This document shows positions 17,727-50,121 of a DNA stretch of 64,000 bases, one piece after another. Each line of letters begins with the position of its first letter. Position 1 is the first letter of the stretch. The stretch is from Fragilariopsis cylindrus CCMP1102 (taxonomy: Eukaryota > Bacillariophyta > Bacillariophyceae > Bacillariales > Bacillariaceae), in the NCBI GenBank assembly GCA_900095095.1, contig FMBT01000303.1, positions 434,001 through 498,000 of the forward strand. Direction: 5' to 3'. The translations under genes and the position numbers were made by a program. Below the pieces are notes generated by a model. The model saw only the letters and a program-made list of their open reading frames with translations, did no database searches and had not been told where the DNA came from.

Positions 17727-20700
17727 TCATTCACTGTTGTTAATGATAGTAGGAGTTTCAGCTTTGCGATAGTATGGAATAACCCTCCTAACGTTCACAT
17801 TTTTGATGTCTGTTGGGGATTTTTCAATTAATATTGATCCATTGTTGTTATGTTTTATAACTTTATAAGGCCCTTCACGAGGTATTGCTAGCTTGCGAAG
17901 GATGCCTGGTTTCTTCAGGGTGATGAGGTCACCCTTCTGATAGATGTGAGGTACTCTGCTTGAGTTTTCTCTAATATTATTTTTGTTTATTTTTGTTTGT
18001 TTATTATTTTTGATTTCATTCCAGTCAATTTCAGTTGATACTGGTGAAAACATATCTCTTCCAAACACTAGCTGTGCTGGTGAGTGTCCATGTGATTGAT
18101 GATACGATGATCTTATTGCATAAGCCACTGAGGAAAGATATTCATCGAATGGATCTTCATTATCCGGATCGATTGGTGTATTTTCTAAATCAAATGTTGC
18201 TAAACCATCACCTAACACTTGGTGTATACGTTCTAGTATAGCATTTGATTGAGGGTTCCAAGCATTGCTTGGTCTTTGTTTTAAACCCATATTATCACAG
18301 AGTTCAGCAAACTCTGCTTTAAATTCAGTTCCATTATCAAATCCTATTTCTTTTGGGCGTGGGTATCTTGACAACCACACACTGTCAAGGATTTGTTGGC
18401 ATCTGTATGCTGTTGGAGGCCCATATAACTGTTGTTGTTCGAACCACCCAGTGACTGGATCGACCATGGTCATTACATGTACTTCATATGTAAAACCATT
18501 TGTATTCACTACTGACTTTGGTCCCCACAGATCTACATTAACCCTATTCCATCGAATAGATTCTGCAGTCTTGGGTGGTAGTAGTGAGTACTTTTTCTTG
18601 CCAGCTTTCTTGTACATCTGGCATTCATGACAGGTCTTTACGAGCTGTTTTACTTGCTTATTAAGACCACTCCAAGTGAATACTAACTTGATTGTATCAA
18701 TCATTCGTTTTTCACCTGGATGAATTAAGATATTATGGTACCAATCTAACACGACTTGTTGTTTTGCTTGGGGTACTAATATTCTGTTATTCTTGTGTAT
18801 CAGTTCAATTCCTTCCACAGATTTATATGTGTAGGTTGTTGAGCTTGTACTGCTTGTTTTAATGTGGCTGTCGACCATATTTACTAAGCTTTCATCATTC
18901 AGCTGTGCTGTTTGCATTGATTGTAGATCTAATGGATACGATGATTCGATGTTTTCTGATGCAGTCATCAGTATGTTGTTATCACAGTCAAAACCATCTT
19001 CAGTGAAGTTTGATTCTGATAAGAATGTGCAGAGATTCATCATCTTTACATCCACATACTGTAGTCGCTTCTGTTTTTGTTCCCACACTCTTAGGTCATC
19101 AGCCTTGTCATTAAGGTCTAACCTTGATAGAGCATCAGCAGCATCGTTGTCAATGCCTGCAATGTGGACCACTTTAGGATTATATTCTTCTACAAGGTTT
19201 CTCCACCTCATCATCCGTTGACTAGGCAATTTTGCATAGAGGAGATTGAGATGATCCGTGTGAACTGTAAGATCTTGTCCTCTAATAACACCAGCAAAGG
19301 CTTTTAAACCTTCTACTATTCCAAGGAGTTCTTTTTCTCCTACTGTATAGTTTAGCTGTGGATCACTGAGCTTTCTTGTATAGAATCCAAGTGGCTTGCC
19401 ATCTTGTACTAGAGTGGCACCCAGTTGGATGTCACTCGCATCGGTATACAAGTGGAAGGGCTTGTCGAAGTCCGGAAATGATAACAGTTCATCTGTTTTT
19501 ATCATTTCTTTGGCTTTGTTAAAAGCAGTTAGATGCTTTTCCAACATAAGAAATGGAATAGGACGTTTGGTACTGTTCTTTTTCTTTGTTGAGGCTGCTG
19601 CTAATTCATTCAAAGGGGATAGGATATGACTCCTTCCTCTGAAGAGATCTCTGTAGAAATTGATCATTCCTAAGAATCTTCTTAGTTGTTTTCCACTAGT
19701 TGGTGGTAGAATACGGTCCATCGCTTCAATTTTCTTTGGCTGTGGACCTATACCTTCGCTAGTGAGTTGGTATCCAAGATACTCCACACTCTTCTGCATG
19801 AAGAAGCTCTTCCTAAGGTTAGCTTTGAATCCGGCATCTTGTAGACGCTGCAGAACTTGCTCAACCTTTTGTAAGTGATTTTCTGTTGATTCATTCACTC
19901 TTTGAATCACCAGTATATCATCGATGTATACAAGTACATCTAGTCCTCTAAGAGTTTCTGTCATAATAGATTGAAACATAGAAGGTGCACAAGCAACGCC
20001 CATAGGCATTCGTAGATATCTATACTTCCCCCAGGGCAGTATAGTTGCACATAGCTTTTGACTCTCTTCATCAAGTGGAATCGTATAGAAACCAAGAGAT
20101 AGGTCAAGGGCTGTAGCTGACTTGAATTTCTCAAGCTTCTGCAGTGTTTCATTGATTCGGGGTAGTGGAAATGGATCCACTTCGACCCACTTATTCAACT
20201 CTCGGAAGTCTGTTACGATACGAATATCTCCAGTCTTCTTTGATACACCAAAGGATGGGGAAGCCCAAGGGCTATCGTCGTGCCATGGTAACTCTTCTAG
20301 TACACCAATTGACACCATACGTTCCACCTCCTTTTTGGCAATATATTCGTAAGCCTTCGGAAGATTGAAGTATCTTCCTTTATATGGCACCACACCGGGC
20401 TTGAGCTTGATGTGTGCAGGCTTGCAATGTTTGAGCGTACCCAAACCTCCACCAAAGAGACCCTTTTCGAATTTTCGTAGGGTCTTTTTCAGTTTTTCCT
20501 TGTTGGTAGCATCGATATCTAGATCATTTACCATAGCATCTATGTTGACCTTGGAGTAGTTGCATTCCAACATTTTGGTTTGTCTCTCTTCTGCTTCTTG
20601 TAGAAGAGGGCTATCAGTATGCATGCTATAGAGCATGTTACAGGTGGCACGGTTGTGCAGCTGACCAATAGTCTTTAGTGGGATCTTATCTTCATTCCAA

Positions 20701-21185
20701 TGAATCTCTTGTTCCTTGAATAAGACATTGATACCCATGTTCCAGAGGAGATCATTCCCAATAATAACATCATACTGTTGTTTTCTTGGGTTGGATGTTT
20801 CATCCACTTGGAACTTGTATTCGATGGTTTGATTCTTTTGGTTTTCGAATTCAATCATCTTGAAGCCCACGCTAGCTGTCATTGACGAGTGGAAGGTACT
20901 TCCATACGTCTCATACTTGATAGTATTTTCTTTTGACAACTTGGTTCGTCGCTTCTTATCTGTAAACTGTTTCAGTATCATTGACTTGGTACATCCAGTG
21001 TCTAGGAGACATCGCGCCATAGTATCATGTCCATTGACATTGATAGAGAGCAGTATTTCACAGAAGCGTCTTGCTCCGTGTAATGGCTTGGCTCGGCTTG
21101 GATATAGTGTACCATCAACAGTACCAACGAGTACCGGCGTAGGCCTATGAAGGATTCGGCGCGGCTTCTTTGTTGCTGTTGTACT
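17727..21185 (-). CDS. pol: gypsy pol: protease, reverse transcriptase, RNase H, integrase
   Basis: The 1,097-residue frame begins at a Met at 21020, but it is open upstream to 21185, directly after the gag stop and in the same frame. The protease signature is LLDTGCTKSMI. The reverse transcriptase carries VYIDDILV. RNase H carries LYTDASDIQLGATLVQ. The integrase has an HHCC zinc module (HPGEKR...CHECQMYKK) and the D, D, E residues in VNVDLWGP, GFDNGTEF and NAILERIHQ. The C-terminus has the usual KGDLITL and GPYKVIKH segments, ending in NVRRVIPYYRK; no chromodomain is evident. No frame breaks were seen, so the enzyme set looks functional. Expression of pol probably depends on passing the gag UGA. 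Confidence 0.93.
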   Translation of the reverse strand, partial: STTATKKPRRILHRPTPVLVGTVDGTLYPSRAKPLHGARRFCEILLSINVNGHDTMARCLLDTGCTKSMILKQFTDKKRRTKLSKENTIKYETYGSTFHSSMTASVGFKMIEFENQKNQTIEYKFQVDETSNPRKQQYDVIIGNDLLWNMGINVLFKEQEIHWNEDKIPLKTIGQLHNRATCNMLYSMHTDSPLLQEAEERQTKMLECNYSKVNIDAMVNDLDIDATNKEKLKKTLRKFEKGLFGGGLGTLKHCKPAHIKLKPGVVPYKGRYFNLPKAYEYIAKKEVERMVSIGVLEELPWHDDSPWASPSFGVSKKTGDIRIVTDFRELNKWVEVDPFPLPRINETLQKLEKFKSATALDLSLGFYTIPLDEESQKLCATILPWGKYRYLRMPMGVACAPSMFQSIMTETLRGLDVLVYIDDILVIQRVNESTENHLQKVEQVLQRLQDAGFKANLRKSFFMQKSVEYLGYQLTSEGIGPQPKKIEAMDRILPPTSGKQLRRFLGMINFYRDLFRGRSHILSPLNELAAASTKKKNSTKRPIPFLMLEKHLTAFNKAKEMIKTDELLSFPDFDKPFHLYTDASDIQLGATLVQDGKPLGFYTRKLSDPQLNYTVGEKELLGIVEGLKAFAGVIRGQDLTVHTDHLNLLYAKLPSQRMMRWRNLVEEYNPKVVHIAGIDNDAADALSRLDLNDKADDLRVWEQKQKRLQYVDVKMMNLCTFLSESNFTEDGFDCDNNILMTASENIESSYPLDLQSMQTAQLNDESLVNMVDSHIKTSSTSSTTYTYKSVEGIELIHKNNRILVPQAKQQVVLDWYHNILIHPGEKRMIDTIKLVFTWSGLNKQVKQLVKTCHECQMYKKAGKKKYSLLPPKTAESIRWNRVNVDLWGPKSVVNTNGFTYEVHVMTMVDPVTGWFEQQQLYGPPTAYRCQQILDSVWLSRYPRPKEIGFDNGTEFKAEFAELCDNMGLKQRPSNAWNPQSNAILERIHQVLGDGLATFDLENTPIDPDNEDPFDEYLSSVAYAIRSSYHQSHGHSPAQLVFGRDMFSPVSTEIDWNEIKNNKQTKINKNNIRENSSRVPHIYQKGDLITLKKPGILRKLAIPREGPYKVIKHNNNGSILIEKSPTDIKNVNVRRVIPYYRKAETPTIINNSE

Positions 21186-40461: not shown

Positions 40462-41183
40462 ATGAAGCTATCTAGTATCCTAATTGCTGTCATTCTCCCG
40501 TCGGTTGTTACCGCATCCGTCCGTGGTTTCCGTGATTCTCCAGATAGAAAATTGGGCAAAGGAGAAGATTATCCTGAAGATGGCATGGATTCAAAATCTG
40601 CTAAGAGTGCGAAGTCAGTAGGCGGTGAATGGGTTGCAAAGAGTGCGAAGTCAAGTAGTGAGAAGGGAGACAAGGCCGCCGACAAGGAAGGAAAGAGTTC
40701 CAAGTCAGTAGGCGCTGAGAAGGAAGGAAAGAGTGCGAAGTCAGTAGGCGGTGAAAAGGATGGAAAGAGCGCGAAGTCAAGTAGTGAGAAGATGGACAAG
40801 GGCGCCGACAAGGAAGGAAAGAGTGCGAAGTCAGTAGGCGGTGAGAAGACTGGAAAGAGTGCGAAGTCAGTAGGCGGTGAGAAGGAAGGAAAGAGTGAGA
40901 AGTCCGCCGACAAGGAAGGAAAGAGTGCGAAGTCAGTAGGCGGTGAGAAGGATGGAAAGAGCGCGAAGTCAGGTGGTGAGAAGATGGACAAGGGTGCCGA
41001 TAAGAAGGAAAGAGTGCGAAGTCAGGCGGTGAGAAGACTGGAAAGAGTGATAAGGAAGGAAAGAGTGCGAAGGCAGTCGGTGAGAAGAGTGGAAAGAGTG
41101 CCAAGCAAGTAAAATCTGATTCACCAAAGGACACTAACAAGCTCACGAAATCTCTCAAGTCCGAGAAATCTGCAAAAGCCTAA
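40462..41183 (+). CDS. silaffin-like secreted Lys/Ser repeat protein, one-base frameshift near 41005
   Basis: Signal peptide MKLSSILIAVILPSVVTAS, then a short acidic segment, then repeats of the form GKSAKSxGGEK, EGKSAKS and EKxDKGADKEGKS. Alternating Lys and Ser with KSAKS units is the signature of silaffins and related diatom proteins whose modified lysines and phosphoserines guide silica deposition in the cell wall. The frame runs to about residue 180, where GATAAGAAGGAAAG stands in place of the GAnAAGGAAGGAAAG seen in all other repeats (one G missing). In the restored frame the repeat continues to the end (KSLKSEKSAKA) and stops at 41181-41183. It is either a sequencing or allelic indel or a recent truncation. 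Silaffin function is inferred from composition and signal peptide. Confidence 0.7.
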
Positions 41184-42143: not shown

Positions 42144-44294
42144 ATGGCCAACTTCCAAGACGAATCAACCGACTGTGCGATCTGTCTGGGATCTTTGATT
42201 CTACGATCGGAACAGGAACAGGAACAAGAACAGGAACAGGAACAGGAACAGGAACAGGAACAGGAACAAGAACAAGAACCAGAACAAAAAATTATAACAT
42301 TAAGATGTGGACATAAGTATCATCTTGATTGTATTATTGAACAAATTAAAGTTGGTAGTATGATAGCAAAGAATGATGATCAACGATTATTATTTACTGG
42401 TATTCAATGTGCAAAATGTGCCAAGATTTTCGTCGGTAGCGGCGGTAATAGTGGCAGTAGTACTAGTAATGGCAGTACTAATGAAGACCATCCTGATTTA
42501 CCAAAAGATTTAATCCGATCCACTGATAAACTGCGTACCAAAGTTGATCAATTAATTATTGAACAAAATTTATTATTGCCACCACTACTACTATCACAAA
42601 AAGAAAAAGTCGATGTCGATGACGATAATGATAATGAAGCTCTCTTTAGAGAGGCACGAAGGAAATATGCATTCTATCTGTGTAGTCATTGTGAGGAACC
42701 TTATTTTGGTGGTACAATACGTTGTGCTGATGAAAATCCACTCCCAACTACGACGATGACGTCCTCGTCACCATCATCAACAACAACAACAACACACCCT
42801 GATCAATATCAGCAGCAGATTCCTGTTGAAAAACGATTATGTCCTGGATGTACACCAGAAACACAATTAGTTTGTCAAAATCCTATTGAACATGGTCGAT
42901 ATTTGCTATGGAAATGTCGATATTGTTGTAAACCATCTACTCATGTCTGTTATGGTCAAGTTCATTTTTGTCAGGATTGTCATGATAAGAATTCACAACG
43001 TGTTGCTACTGCTGCTACTGCTACTGCTGCTTCAATAATAGCAGAACAAAGTGGACGACCTACCCTCGAAGCAATTCCGTGTCTCGGTGGTGAATCTTGT
43101 AAATATCCTAAACCACCATCGTCGTCGTTATCTTTTTCTTCAACAACAGCAGCAACAACAACAACAACTGATAGATGTAAATTCCATTCGAATGGACCAA
43201 CAAAGGATTGTGAACAAGTATATTCATGTGCGATTTGTGACTCAGTACCAAATAACGATAATAGTAACATACTTACTATTGAATCGGGATCACATAATTT
43301 CATTTTCAATCCAAATGGTGAATTTGGTGTAAATGGATGGAGACGTACAAATCAATACAGTGGATGGCACGTTGAAGAACGACATCACGAAGAACCTTTA
43401 TTACTACCGATAATTAATGATGGCAATACCAATACCAATAACAACAACAATAACAACAACAACAATATAACCCCTATTACAACCAATTTCGTTTCATCCT
43501 TCCAACAATGTGTGATGATGCAATCGATTGATCTAAGTCGTGTATTACGAATTGGAAAAAAAAGAAGATTAGGAGAAGTAGAAAGAGACAACAATACTAA
43601 TAATAGTATGAATAATGATATGAATAGTCAAGGAGTTATTATTAATGATGCTACGATTATTCCCATTGAGGTATCGGCACGGTATACCGGCCGGAATGAC
43701 TGTCCCAGTGTTTTTATGTTATCGGCTATTTTATCAGATCATCCAGCAGCAGCAGCAGCAGCAGCAGGGCGTAGTAATACACGTCGTCCAGATCAAATCT
43801 TAAATACAGAAGTTTTAGAGGCACCACCTGGTAATTATTGGGAACGTACATCATTAGTATTTAATTTATCCAAAAAAGAATTAGAAACAAGATTGTTGAA
43901 TGGTGGTGGTGGTGCTGTGATAACAGTGATTGTAAAAGGGAAAGATGTACGATTTTGGCAGGGAAATTTTGGTAGTAAAGTAGCAGATATTAGTGTACGG
44001 ATTATAGGAAATTCTGATTTCATAAATGAATTAGTTATTGTACCGCCATCCGCCGCTGAGGACGAGAACGAGAACGACGAGGTACGGAACAATACTGCTA
44101 CTACTTCTAATGCAGCGGGAATTATAACTGATAATAATCCTGATGGTGGTGATGGTGGTGATCGTGCTACTACTACTACTCCTATTAGTGCAATGACTCA
44201 CCGAATAATACTATGGGATATTTTTATCCCGGTTGCATGTTTCCTAATACTAGCTTGGTTAGCAGCGTCTAATAAATTCGAATTGCGGGAGTAA
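42144..44294 (+). CDS. tail-anchored RING-relay (MYCBP2-type) E3 ligase with F-box-associated (FBA) domain
   Basis: 716 residues, one exon. RING: C11, C14, C55, H57, H60, C63, C89, C92, with an EQ-repeat insert between the first two zinc pairs. Residues about 174-366 match the Cys-rich end of MYCBP2/PAM: YAFYLCSHCEEPYFGG, then KCRYCC, then HVCYGQVHFCQDCH. Residues aligning with the MYCBP2 relay cysteines (4520, 4572) and His 4583 are C194, C269 and H280; Glu 229 lies near the catalytic Glu. These enzymes pass ubiquitin between two cysteines and esterify it to Thr/Ser. Residues about 384-620 look like an FBA beta-sandwich (NFIFNPNGEFGVNGWR, GWHVEE, FWQGNFGSK), which in FBXO2-type proteins binds high-mannose glycans. 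One hydrophobic helix near residues 690-708 (DIFIPVACFLILAWLAA) makes it tail-anchored, facing the cytosol. The role in ER quality control is inferred. Confidence 0.88.
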   Translation: MANFQDESTDCAICLGSLILRSEQEQEQEQEQEQEQEQEQEQEQEPEQKIITLRCGHKYHLDCIIEQIKVGSMIAKNDDQRLLFTGIQCAKCAKIFVGSGGNSGSSTSNGSTNEDHPDLPKDLIRSTDKLRTKVDQLIIEQNLLLPPLLLSQKEKVDVDDDNDNEALFREARRKYAFYLCSHCEEPYFGGTIRCADENPLPTTTMTSSSPSSTTTTTHPDQYQQQIPVEKRLCPGCTPETQLVCQNPIEHGRYLLWKCRYCCKPSTHVCYGQVHFCQDCHDKNSQRVATAATATAASIIAEQSGRPTLEAIPCLGGESCKYPKPPSSSLSFSSTTAATTTTTDRCKFHSNGPTKDCEQVYSCAICDSVPNNDNSNILTIESGSHNFIFNPNGEFGVNGWRRTNQYSGWHVEERHHEEPLLLPIINDGNTNTNNNNNNNNNNITPITTNFVSSFQQCVMMQSIDLSRVLRIGKKRRLGEVERDNNTNNSMNNDMNSQGVIINDATIIPIEVSARYTGRNDCPSVFMLSAILSDHPAAAAAAAGRSNTRRPDQILNTEVLEAPPGNYWERTSLVFNLSKKELETRLLNGGGGAVITVIVKGKDVRFWQGNFGSKVADISVRIIGNSDFINELVIVPPSAAEDENENDEVRNNTATTSNAAGIITDNNPDGGDGGDRATTTTPISAMTHRIILWDIFIPVACFLILAWLAASNKFELRE

Positions 44295-44983: not shown

Positions 44984-46221
44984 TTATGCTTCTTCACACC
45001 ATTTATTTTCTTCACGTACTTGTGCTTCTTCTTCTGGTGAAAAATCATTAGTAATATTAAAGGTAGCACGAATTTCATCGGGTGTTTTACCTTTAATCAT
45101 CGATGCGACCGTCGCACAGGTTAAATCCAACAAGGGTTTAATATCCATATAATTCGCCGCCAATATCAATTCAAATAATAAGACTTGTTCTAAATCAACA
45201 AAGTCGGCATACCATTTTTGGACGACATCAGCCATATTTTGTGACTTTAATGGTTTTTCAATTTCGGTCATCGGTTCCGCTAAATGATGTTCACAAAATT
45301 CAATGACCTTTTTCAAGACTTCGGATTTGACATTTGGTAATGGAATTTCAGTAATCTTCTCCTTTCCATCGTCATCCTCATCATCGTCGTCATCATCATC
45401 ATCATCTTTGTCATCCATCATGGACTTGACAAGTTCGGACATATTCGATACCGTAATAGGAACGGGGAACTTGTCACCTTCCTTCGAGATCTAATGTTTT
45501 TTATTAGAGCGGATGGATGAATGGAGGAATTAATTAATTTAAGATAAAAAGGTGGACAATAATAAAGGTTATGTGAGTTCACGAGAGTGCGGTTGGGTGG
45601 GTTGGTATAAATGAATTGCTTGCCAGAAAAGAAGTCGAAAAAACAAAGGAAAACGAGAAGCGGGGTAGTAGTACGGTGCATGCAGCGAAAGTTAAATTAA
45701 ATCGGGAAAAAATCAAAATTAAATTAAATTAATCGAGAGAGAGAGATGATTTATTATTATTATTGCCATCGTGGGTGACGGAAGAATTAATTACAATAGA
45801 GATCAATGTTCCGATTGGAATTGGAATTGAAATGGCGGAACGAAATGAGCGGAGCGGAAAGAGACAATCAAACTACCCGTGCCTTCTCCGTCCCCCCGCG
45901 CCATCATCATTGTTACCATCATCAAATCAAATCAAATCGAAGGCGGACAAACGACGGTTCAATGGATGGCAAACAAAATAAATACTGTGGAGAGGAGAAG
46001 AAAATTTTCTTCGATACGGTGGTATGATAGATGCTTCTCTCTCTCTCTCGTACTGTAAAAGCAATCATAAAAGGACGAACGACGACAAACGATACGATGA
46101 CTGATTTAATATATATACAGTATATTTAATTCCGTGCGTAACTTACCAATTGAATAGTGACACCACTACTACTAGTATCAGCAGTAGAGGCTGCTGTTTC
46201 TTTGCTATCTTCGACATCCAT
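44984..46221 (-). CDS. SKP1: SKP1, SCF ubiquitin ligase adaptor, two exons
   Basis: Exon 1 46221-46147 (25 codons, starting MDVEDSKETAAS, donor TTG|GTAAGT). Exon 2 45490-44984 (acceptor TTAG|ATC). The joined protein is 193 residues. It has the BTB/POZ-like fold start (VTIQL-ISKEGDKFPV), an Asp-rich insert (residues about 53-68), PLPNVKSEVLKKVIEFCEHH, and the F-box-binding C-terminal helices DLTCATVASMIKGKTPDEIRATFNI...PEEEAQVREENKWCEE. SKP1 links cullin-1 to F-box proteins. The 656-nt intron is large for this window and has a GA/CT-rich tract. It lies tail-to-tail with the FBA-containing ligase. Confidence 0.95.
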
Positions 46222-47649: not shown

Positions 47650-50121
47650 ATGGGTGGAATTCTTGGAACGACAGCAACAATGGACGAACCGGAACAGGAA
47701 CAGGATCCGTGTCCGAAGAAGAATGGGCAGAATAGTACCGGTAAGCGAATTCTAACGGCAGCAGCAGCAGCAGAAGAAGAAGAAGAAGTTGTTGATGATG
47801 ATGATACCACAAAAGTAACAAACGAAGAACCATGTTCAAAGAAACAACGTCTAGAAGAAACACCAGCAACGGTAGCAACAGCTGCAGCTCCTGTAAAAGA
47901 ATCGACTACTACTACTACGGCTGCTACTGCTATTGCTACTGTTACGTCTGTTGATCCAGTTGTGAATAGAGGTGGAAAGAGTAGACATAATAATAAAACA
48001 ACATCTAAACAAAATAATAAGAAGAACCAAAAAATCAAAACAAAACATATGGATCCAAGAATATTAAAAGTACGAAAAGATATACAAGAAGGTTGTCGTA
48101 CAAATAATTTATCTATGGCAATGCTATCCTATGAGGAAGCAATCCAAGATAATATACGAATTGAAGCACAATCGTATTACAATTTATTGAATTTATGTGA
48201 TGGATTAGATCGAGAAGAACGTGGATTACATGTGGGATCACCAAAATTGCAATTGCAAATAGAACAACAACAAGAAGAAGAAACGAAAAAGAAGTCCATA
48301 TTATCCTCCTCCTCCGAACAGCAACAACAGGAAGTAGAAAAACCAGCACCATCACCACCACTTAATATTACTGTTGACCTAAAAAAACGACAAGAATATA
48401 TATTTAAAATAAAGGATCGAATGCAATCCAAAGAAATTAATTTACCATTAAATGAAACAGCCTATTCTGCAATACTAAAAATTTTATCCAAAAATAAAGA
48501 ATTTGGAAAAGCAGAAGAAATTTTACAGGAAGCGGAGCTAGTACAACAATGCAAACCAAAATTACGATTGTATTCCTCATTATTATCTGCCTATTGTGAA
48601 TATGACTATAATAATAATAATGAAAACAATAATAATAATGGCAATGACAATGACAATGACAACAAACCATATGAATCAGCAAAATTAGTAGATGCATTAC
48701 TATGTTGGAAACGTTTACGTCAAAGAGCAAAAATAATGAAACAAATTGCCACTAAAAAAGCGACATCGTCTACAACCAGTGTGGATACTGGTATGGAATT
48801 AACAGAACGTGAATATTTATCATTAATGAAATGTTCTATATCCTATAATGATACTTTAGTAATGGAAGATGTATTATCACGATTAGCAGAAGATATACCA
48901 ATACCATGTAAAAATTCGATATCAATTATTATTGAATGGTTTACACAGCAAAATCGAACAATAATGCAAAATGATAATCAAAATCAAGATAATAATGCTA
49001 CAGTACAGAAACTATTAGATGAAATTCGTACGTATGATACCGTATCGGAACCTTCTCCAAGGATGGGTCCAATAGGTGGATGTGATGGTGGTAGTGGATC
49101 GTCATGGAGTATAAGTAATAAATGTTCCATTGATATCAAAACTGGTATATTAACAACTGGTTGTTTAAAGGGTTATACATTACAACCTGTACCATTATCC
49201 GATAGTTCATTTAATGATATGATCAAAATGAATGAATTAATTGTTGTGGAAGGACAAATTTCAGGCCATGCAAGTAAATTTCAAGGTGGTAAGAAAGGTA
49301 AAAAACGGAATAATAATAATAAAGATCAATTTTCACAACAACAACAACAACGACAAAGAGAATGGAACTATTTTAATGATTTTTTAAGTAAAAATTGTTC
49401 AACAACAGATTTAAATTCTAATTATGATGTTGTTATTGATGGTGCAAATATTGGTTATTATAAACAAAATTTCATGAATTCACCCCATCATGTGAATTAT
49501 GAACAAATTGATTGGATTGTACGTTATTTTACATATACATTAAAGAAACGTGTACTATTAGTAATGCACAATCGTCATTTTACAAAACGAATGTTACCAT
49601 CTAAGTATCAGTATATTATAGATTTCTGGATGAACAATAATATATTATATCAAACACCAGCTGGGATGAATGATGATTGGTTTTGGATGCATGCTGCATT
49701 AAAGTATAAATCATTAGTTGTTACAAATGATGAAATGAGAGATCATCATTTTCAAATGCTGGCACCAAAATTCTTTCTACGTTGGAAGGAACGACATCAA
49801 ATACATTTTGATTTTGGTAATCCTTTGAGTAAGATTGATATGATACAACAAATGCAGCAACAACAAATTAGTATTGCTGGACAACAACAACAACAACAAC
49901 CATACATTTGTAGTAACAGTCGCAATTATCGTGAAATTATATTAAAATATCCTAATGTATATTCACGAAGAATCCAACGTGTTGGTGGTGTTGGTGGTGG
50001 TTTAGTTGTACCATTGACAATGGTAGGTGATGAAAATCGTTTCTTAGATGGTTGTCATGTTGCTAGTGATGAGGAACCGGCCGAAGAATTATATCTTTGT
50101 ATCCGTCCTAATATCGTCTAG
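47650..50121 (+). CDS. PRORP: protein-only RNase P (PRORP)
   Basis: An 823-residue single-exon protein that removes 5' leaders from pre-tRNA without an RNA subunit. The N-terminus is acidic/Ala-rich then basic (KNQKIKTKH), with no obvious organelle presequence, so the enzyme is perhaps nuclear. Pentatricopeptide-like helical repeats span about 140-430 (for example LPLNETAYSAILKILSKN). The NYN metallonuclease domain starts near 588: YDVVIDGANIGYYKQNF, then NDDWFWMHAALKYKSLVVTN, then DEMRDHHF and FFLRWKERHQIHF. These give the conserved catalytic aspartates. The structural zinc site seems altered: the plant CxxC is CLKG here, while the C-terminal His (GCHVAS) and Cys (LYLCIRP) remain. A KKGKKRNNNNK insert precedes the nuclease domain. 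Confidence 0.95.
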   Translation: MGGILGTTATMDEPEQEQDPCPKKNGQNSTGKRILTAAAAAEEEEEVVDDDDTTKVTNEEPCSKKQRLEETPATVATAAAPVKESTTTTTAATAIATVTSVDPVVNRGGKSRHNNKTTSKQNNKKNQKIKTKHMDPRILKVRKDIQEGCRTNNLSMAMLSYEEAIQDNIRIEAQSYYNLLNLCDGLDREERGLHVGSPKLQLQIEQQQEEETKKKSILSSSSEQQQQEVEKPAPSPPLNITVDLKKRQEYIFKIKDRMQSKEINLPLNETAYSAILKILSKNKEFGKAEEILQEAELVQQCKPKLRLYSSLLSAYCEYDYNNNNENNNNNGNDNDNDNKPYESAKLVDALLCWKRLRQRAKIMKQIATKKATSSTTSVDTGMELTEREYLSLMKCSISYNDTLVMEDVLSRLAEDIPIPCKNSISIIIEWFTQQNRTIMQNDNQNQDNNATVQKLLDEIRTYDTVSEPSPRMGPIGGCDGGSGSSWSISNKCSIDIKTGILTTGCLKGYTLQPVPLSDSSFNDMIKMNELIVVEGQISGHASKFQGGKKGKKRNNNNKDQFSQQQQQRQREWNYFNDFLSKNCSTTDLNSNYDVVIDGANIGYYKQNFMNSPHHVNYEQIDWIVRYFTYTLKKRVLLVMHNRHFTKRMLPSKYQYIIDFWMNNNILYQTPAGMNDDWFWMHAALKYKSLVVTNDEMRDHHFQMLAPKFFLRWKERHQIHFDFGNPLSKIDMIQQMQQQQISIAGQQQQQQPYICSNSRNYREIILKYPNVYSRRIQRVGGVGGGLVVPLTMVGDENRFLDGCHVASDEEPAEELYLCIRPNIV

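Follow-up and report, generated by a model that had tools for sequence, protein, structure and literature searches.

Human MYCBP2, an unusual ubiquitin ligase (E3), is known for placing ubiquitin on threonine, and in mammals F-box-associated (FBA) domains hold the sugar chains of misfolded proteins. Reviews present RING-Cys-relay (RCR) chemistry through MYCBP2 as the one animal example (PMC9527308), and the PHR proteins to which it belongs have RCC1-like, PHR and other scaffold domains (PMC4806438). In FBXO2, which reads N-glycans through its FBA domain, W280 stacks on GlcNAc-GlcNAc (PMC4603797). In mammals, SCF-FBS2 acting with ARIH1 attaches ester-linked ubiquitin to sequon Ser/Thr and to GlcNAc, much of this having been observed in vitro (PMC12203941, PMC13270118). 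Here we describe a 716-residue protein encoded in a 64,000-nucleotide stretch of the Fragilariopsis cylindrus genome (the window), in which an RCR core, an FBA domain and a C-terminal hydrophobic helix occur together. We consider it reasonably likely that this protein is a one-chain diatom E3, membrane-held, whose RCR core is aimed by the FBA domain at the N-glycan core and ubiquitinates hydroxyls. Its features are as follows.

42144..44294, + strand: intact single open reading frame (ORF) of 716 aa with RING and tandem-cysteine (TC) domains (the RCR core), FBA domain and C-terminal hydrophobic helix (ORF, Pfam, homologues)
42174..42419, + strand: RING-H2, aa 11-92 (ligand pattern; profile alignment to 5o6c)
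42504..42563, + strand: linker helix between RING and TC, aa 121-140 (predicted model; the profile alignment spans the MYCBP2 RING-TC linker)
42657..43238, + strand: TC domain, aa 172-365
42723..42725, + strand: codon of C194, equivalent to the upstream relay cysteine C4520 of MYCBP2 (alignment; 151/152)
42948..42950, + strand: codon of C269, equivalent to the downstream catalytic cysteine C4572 of MYCBP2 (151/152)
42981..42983, + strand: codon of H280, equivalent to the catalytic histidine H4583 of MYCBP2 (151/152)
43290..44009, + strand: FBA lectin-like beta-sandwich, aa 383-622 (Pfam, profile alignment, predicted structure)
43956..43958, + strand: codon of W605, equivalent to FBXO2 W280 (alignment to 2e33; W in 147/152)
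44205..44264, + strand: C-terminal hydrophobic helix, aa 688-707, candidate tail anchor, with the motif D-I-F-I-P

The domains follow one another, from the N-terminus, as RING, linker helix, Cys-rich TC domain, FBA beta-sandwich, low-complexity stretch and hydrophobic helix, which confirms the combination reported in the preliminary description of this locus. In a Pfam scan of the protein, FBA scored above its cut-off (34.7 versus 32.4 bits), several RING models remained sub-threshold and no family covered the TC domain; Pfam-based annotation thus misses the latter. The modules are known ones, and it is their arrangement that we did not find described: the open-licence literature searched contained no description of an RCR-FBA fusion, no paper naming both MYCBP2 and diatom, and none that combined any two of RING-Cys-relay, diatom and F-box associated. 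Automatic annotation has already picked up the parts, as names only, since family members are labelled ‘protein ligase MYCBP2’ (Seminavis robusta) or ‘F-box associated region/RING-like zinc finger’ (JGI) in their sources.

The RING-linker-TC order, both relay cysteines and the catalytic histidine are common to this protein and to MYCBP2/PAM/Highwire/RPM-1. In contrast to those giant scaffolds, it has only 716 aa, carries a fused FBA domain and tail, has F4586 replaced, and could presumably dispense with the FBXO45 adaptor. With E-values up to 1 allowed, the Pfam scan detected no RCC1-like, PHR or other scaffold domain, and we rejected a PHR (MYCBP2) orthologue on this ground. With FBXO2/Fbs1, FBXO6/Fbs2 and FBXO44 it has the FBA fold and the pocket aromatics in common; FBXO27/Fbs3, of the same FBA lectin-type F-box group, was itself outside this comparison. 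The FBA domain is joined to a catalytic E3 here and to an SCF adaptor there, and only those adaptors have an F-box: the same scan revealed no F-box that binds SKP1, and none was among the 13 Pfam families matched at 0.01 by 82 family members. These scans bear out the absence of an F-box from the preliminary description, and an F-box (FBXO) protein was rejected as an identity. By analogy with SCF-FBS2/ARIH1, N-glycan recognition and hydroxyl ubiquitination would be combined, in that case by a cullin assembly of several subunits working with an RBR ligase, in the diatom by one polypeptide with an RCR core.

To define the family, a large protein database was searched in three ways. A sequence search returned 86 relatives (down to E 1.5e-40), a profile search 160 (the best 120 of the 160 were examined, and the other 40 may include divergent members from outside the diatoms), and a search from the divergent member P0086, the weakest match of the first search, 68. 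Each search scored the 8,000 candidates (7,999 in the profile search) sharing most words, at lengths of 0.55-1.75 times that of the query, which places RCR modules within very long proteins outside their reach. Residue counts refer to 151 distinct proteins plus the window protein (152 sequences).

The window protein has the features of an RCR module, a RING-H2 followed by a linker helix and a TC domain. The RING ligands are C11, C14, C55, H57, H60, C63, C89 and C92, and an EQ-repeat insertion at about aa 23-48 splits the RING between ligands 2 and 3. In a profile alignment with MYCBP2, 14 of the 15 Cys/His columns of the TC domain were paired, and both catalytic cysteines of MYCBP2, which are not known to bind zinc, paired with C194 and C269. 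C194, C269 and H280 are each kept in 151 of the 152 sequences, as are the other TC Cys/His residues to an equal degree, and jointly in 150. The correspondence of these three residues to C4520, C4572 and H4583, proposed beforehand from the sequence, is therefore upheld by profile alignment and conservation. A chance match between Cys-rich sequences was rejected in view of the conservation across the 152 sequences and the profile E-values. Foldseek with the predicted model placed MYCBP2 at ranks 11 and 12; it was not among the best 50 structure matches of the full-length model, a list filled by FBA entries. One relative, P0150 (an MMETSP transcriptome), has lost the FBA Trp, the upstream relay cysteine and several of the remaining TC Cys/His; it is possibly a pseudo-enzyme or a protein of altered function.

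Residues 383-622 fold as an FBA sandwich in the predicted structure, and the sequence also qualifies as FBA. The preliminary description had named failure of this segment to fold so as a ground for refutation; Pfam, profile alignment and predicted fold all bear out the FBA-type beta-sandwich. Precomputed Pfam FBA matches were present in 85 of the 86 relatives from the first search (exception, P0082) and in 67 of the 68 from the P0086 search (exception, P0151). The pocket aromatics F177, Y279 and W280 of FBXO2 correspond to F453, F604 and W605, with Y279 replaced by F; the family has F (90) or Y (49), F (132) and W (147) at these positions, and the position equivalent to FBXO2 K281 is variable. 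As a separate observation, the divergent metagenome protein P0139 (711 aa) has about 200 extra residues past the FBA domain, including a second FBA-like start (LVANGSGRYGLRGW), and possibly carries a second FBA domain in tandem.

The window protein shows the pattern of a tail-anchored protein, with a single C-terminal hydrophobic helix and an N-terminus that is not hydrophobic. Its tail has a mean hydropathy of 2.58 with 12 residues after the hydrophobic segment, and the predicted model has a helix at aa 684-715. To survey relatives, a tail was scored as a hydrophobic 17-mer (mean hydropathy at least 1.6) after the FBA domain in the 145 proteins with a locatable FBA end, 7 of the 152 being dropped for want of one. 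It was present in 71, about half of the family, absent in 68 and unclear in 6. At most 22 residues follow the tail in 70 of the 71 (median 4; the remaining one is a gene model fused to another), and the motif [DE]xx[LIVFMA]P occurs in 47 of the 71, where 200 shuffles gave 2.8 on average and 8 at most. The short C-terminal remainder and the motif enrichment thus mark the tail as a conserved element where it is present, and the hydrophobic helix noted earlier stands on hydropathy, predicted structure and the motif in relatives. On the family tree, the tail label needs at least 20 changes and some close pairs differ, which may reflect real loss or 3′ exons missed in metagenome gene calls. Since a hydrophobic N-terminus is found in only 1 of the 152 members, the catalytic region is expected on the cytosolic side. 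The tail probably holds the enzyme at a membrane, for which the endoplasmic reticulum (ER) is the candidate.

From these modules, residues, folds and tails we infer a relay enzyme that would prefer hydroxyls, bind sugar, reside at the ER and serve glycoprotein quality control. The RING would bind ubiquitin-charged E2, and ubiquitin would be taken by C194 and handed to C269, with H280 as the general base for the final transfer onto a hydroxyl. N-glycoproteins whose inner GlcNAc-GlcNAc core is exposed in the cytosol would be selected by the FBA domain, and the tail anchor would retain the enzyme at the membrane, probably the ER, where such glycoproteins emerge. Acceptors would be hydroxyls close to the glycan, in the simplest case Thr/Ser, for example those in N-X-T sequons. 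The diatom protein would thereby merge a lectin and an ester-forming ligase. In diatoms most N-glycans are of the high-mannose type on GlcNAc2, and a study of Phaeodactylum found 57.9% of the motifs to be N-X-T (PMC8678454); Hrd1, Cdc48 and Png1 have been discussed as Phaeodactylum parts of ER-associated degradation (ERAD; PMC9585838). We put forward, only tentatively, a more specific version, in which a self-contained lectin-E3 at the membrane grips Man3GlcNAc2 and esterifies the sequon Thr/Ser, or even the GlcNAc C6 hydroxyl, alone doing the job of SCF-FBS2 plus ARIH1. The preliminary description, which had proposed a tail-anchored ER ligase placing ubiquitin on Thr/Ser of retrotranslocated glycoproteins, is thus supported in part: profiles, conservation and predicted structure sustain its domain identities, relay-residue match, FBA fold and hydrophobic tail. 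If the reading is true, a compact relay enzyme conserved in many diatoms would mean that relay ligases directed at hydroxyls also exist outside giant neuronal scaffolds, and its fusion to a domain type that reads N-glycans would unite recognition with ubiquitination of non-lysine sites in a single small protein. The fusion would then open to direct test, both in vitro and in an alga that can be transformed, whether cells ubiquitinate glycoproteins deliberately via hydroxyls.

Several observations leave parts of this reading less certain and lend themselves to other explanations. The threonine pocket of MYCBP2, which we take to be F4573/F4578/F4586 and a specificity feature of that protein, corresponds to Y in 143, F in 141 and N in 127 of the 152 sequences; two positions are aromatic and the third is changed, and the Asn at the F4586 equivalent, which makes ester rather than lysine chemistry less certain, would be in keeping with an altered acceptor. 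Around the acidic residue that is presumably E4534 in MYCBP2, position 229 is E in 93 of 152 and position 230 is D in 59 and E in 45, the alignment shifting by one. A Glu is named as a member of the RCR catalytic triad (PMC9527308), and its ambiguous equivalent here likewise makes ester chemistry less certain. An ordinary RING E3 acting on lysine, whose TC region is a zinc domain for structure or regulation with C194/C269 as extra ligands or remnants, would accommodate this laxity at F4586 and E4534, and a RING alone can bind E2. We nevertheless find it improbable, because both catalytic-type cysteines and the histidine match the other TC Cys/His in conservation, which is more than a purely structural role would obviously call for.

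Glycan binding meets a difficulty of its own, as FBXO44 keeps the pocket residues yet binds no sugar (PMC4603797). A relay E3 of the RCR type in which the FBA domain recognises a protein degron instead of a glycan, as in FBXO44, whose tail only places the enzyme and whose MYCBP2-like ester chemistry is unrelated to glycoproteins, would also agree with the variable K281 position and the 68 of 145 proteins that lack the tail; we regard it as unlikely, though it is the alternative to take most seriously. Diatoms also possess a plastid ERAD-like system, SELMA, with its own ubiquitin enzymes, and the protein could belong to this import machinery of complex plastids instead of host ER quality control. 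Periplastid targeting requires a bipartite presequence, whereas the one hydrophobic N-terminus among the 152 (about 10 of which are N-terminally short) makes this assignment very improbable.

Of the two groups in which the preliminary description suggested looking for the protein, diatoms and oomycetes, the diatoms were recovered: an organism or taxid was readable for 13 relatives among the matches listed, and all 13, from both pennate and centric classes, are diatoms. Pseudo-nitzschia heimii, Bacillariaceae sp., Thalassiosira minuscula, Stephanocyclus meneghinianus and Epithemia clementina were taxonomy-checked; Seminavis robusta, Skeletonema dohrnii, Thalassiosira exigua, Thalassiosira profunda, Fragilaria crotonensis, Cylindrotheca fusiformis, Cyclotella cryptica and Cyclotella atomus we take to be diatoms. 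The nearest tree row to the window protein is P0001 (61% identity over 458 columns). An assembly artefact was rejected, the domain order being identical in proteins from transcriptomes and genomes. Viral contigs and prokaryote genomes, each scanned with two short peptide patterns, yielded 19 and 144 stretches, respectively, none of them confirmed.

The next gene found in the window, convergent with the ligase gene, encodes SKP1 (44984-45442, - strand; Pfam Skp1, 5.9e-28), apparently with an upstream exon as read by eye. It was considered as a partner of the ligase, since in animals SKP1 cooperates with FBA proteins as well as with MYCBP2-FBXO45; the adjacency may be chance. Farther away are a protein-only RNase P (47650-50121, + strand; Pfam PRORP and PPR_long matches) and a polyprotein resembling those of retrotransposons, in which reverse transcriptase, RNase H and integrase domains were matched (17727-21020, - strand). 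Upstream, 40462-41112 (+ strand) encodes a secreted-looking protein of 216 aa composed of Lys/Ser repeats of the KSAKSVGGEK type, presumably resembling the silica-associated repeat proteins of diatoms.
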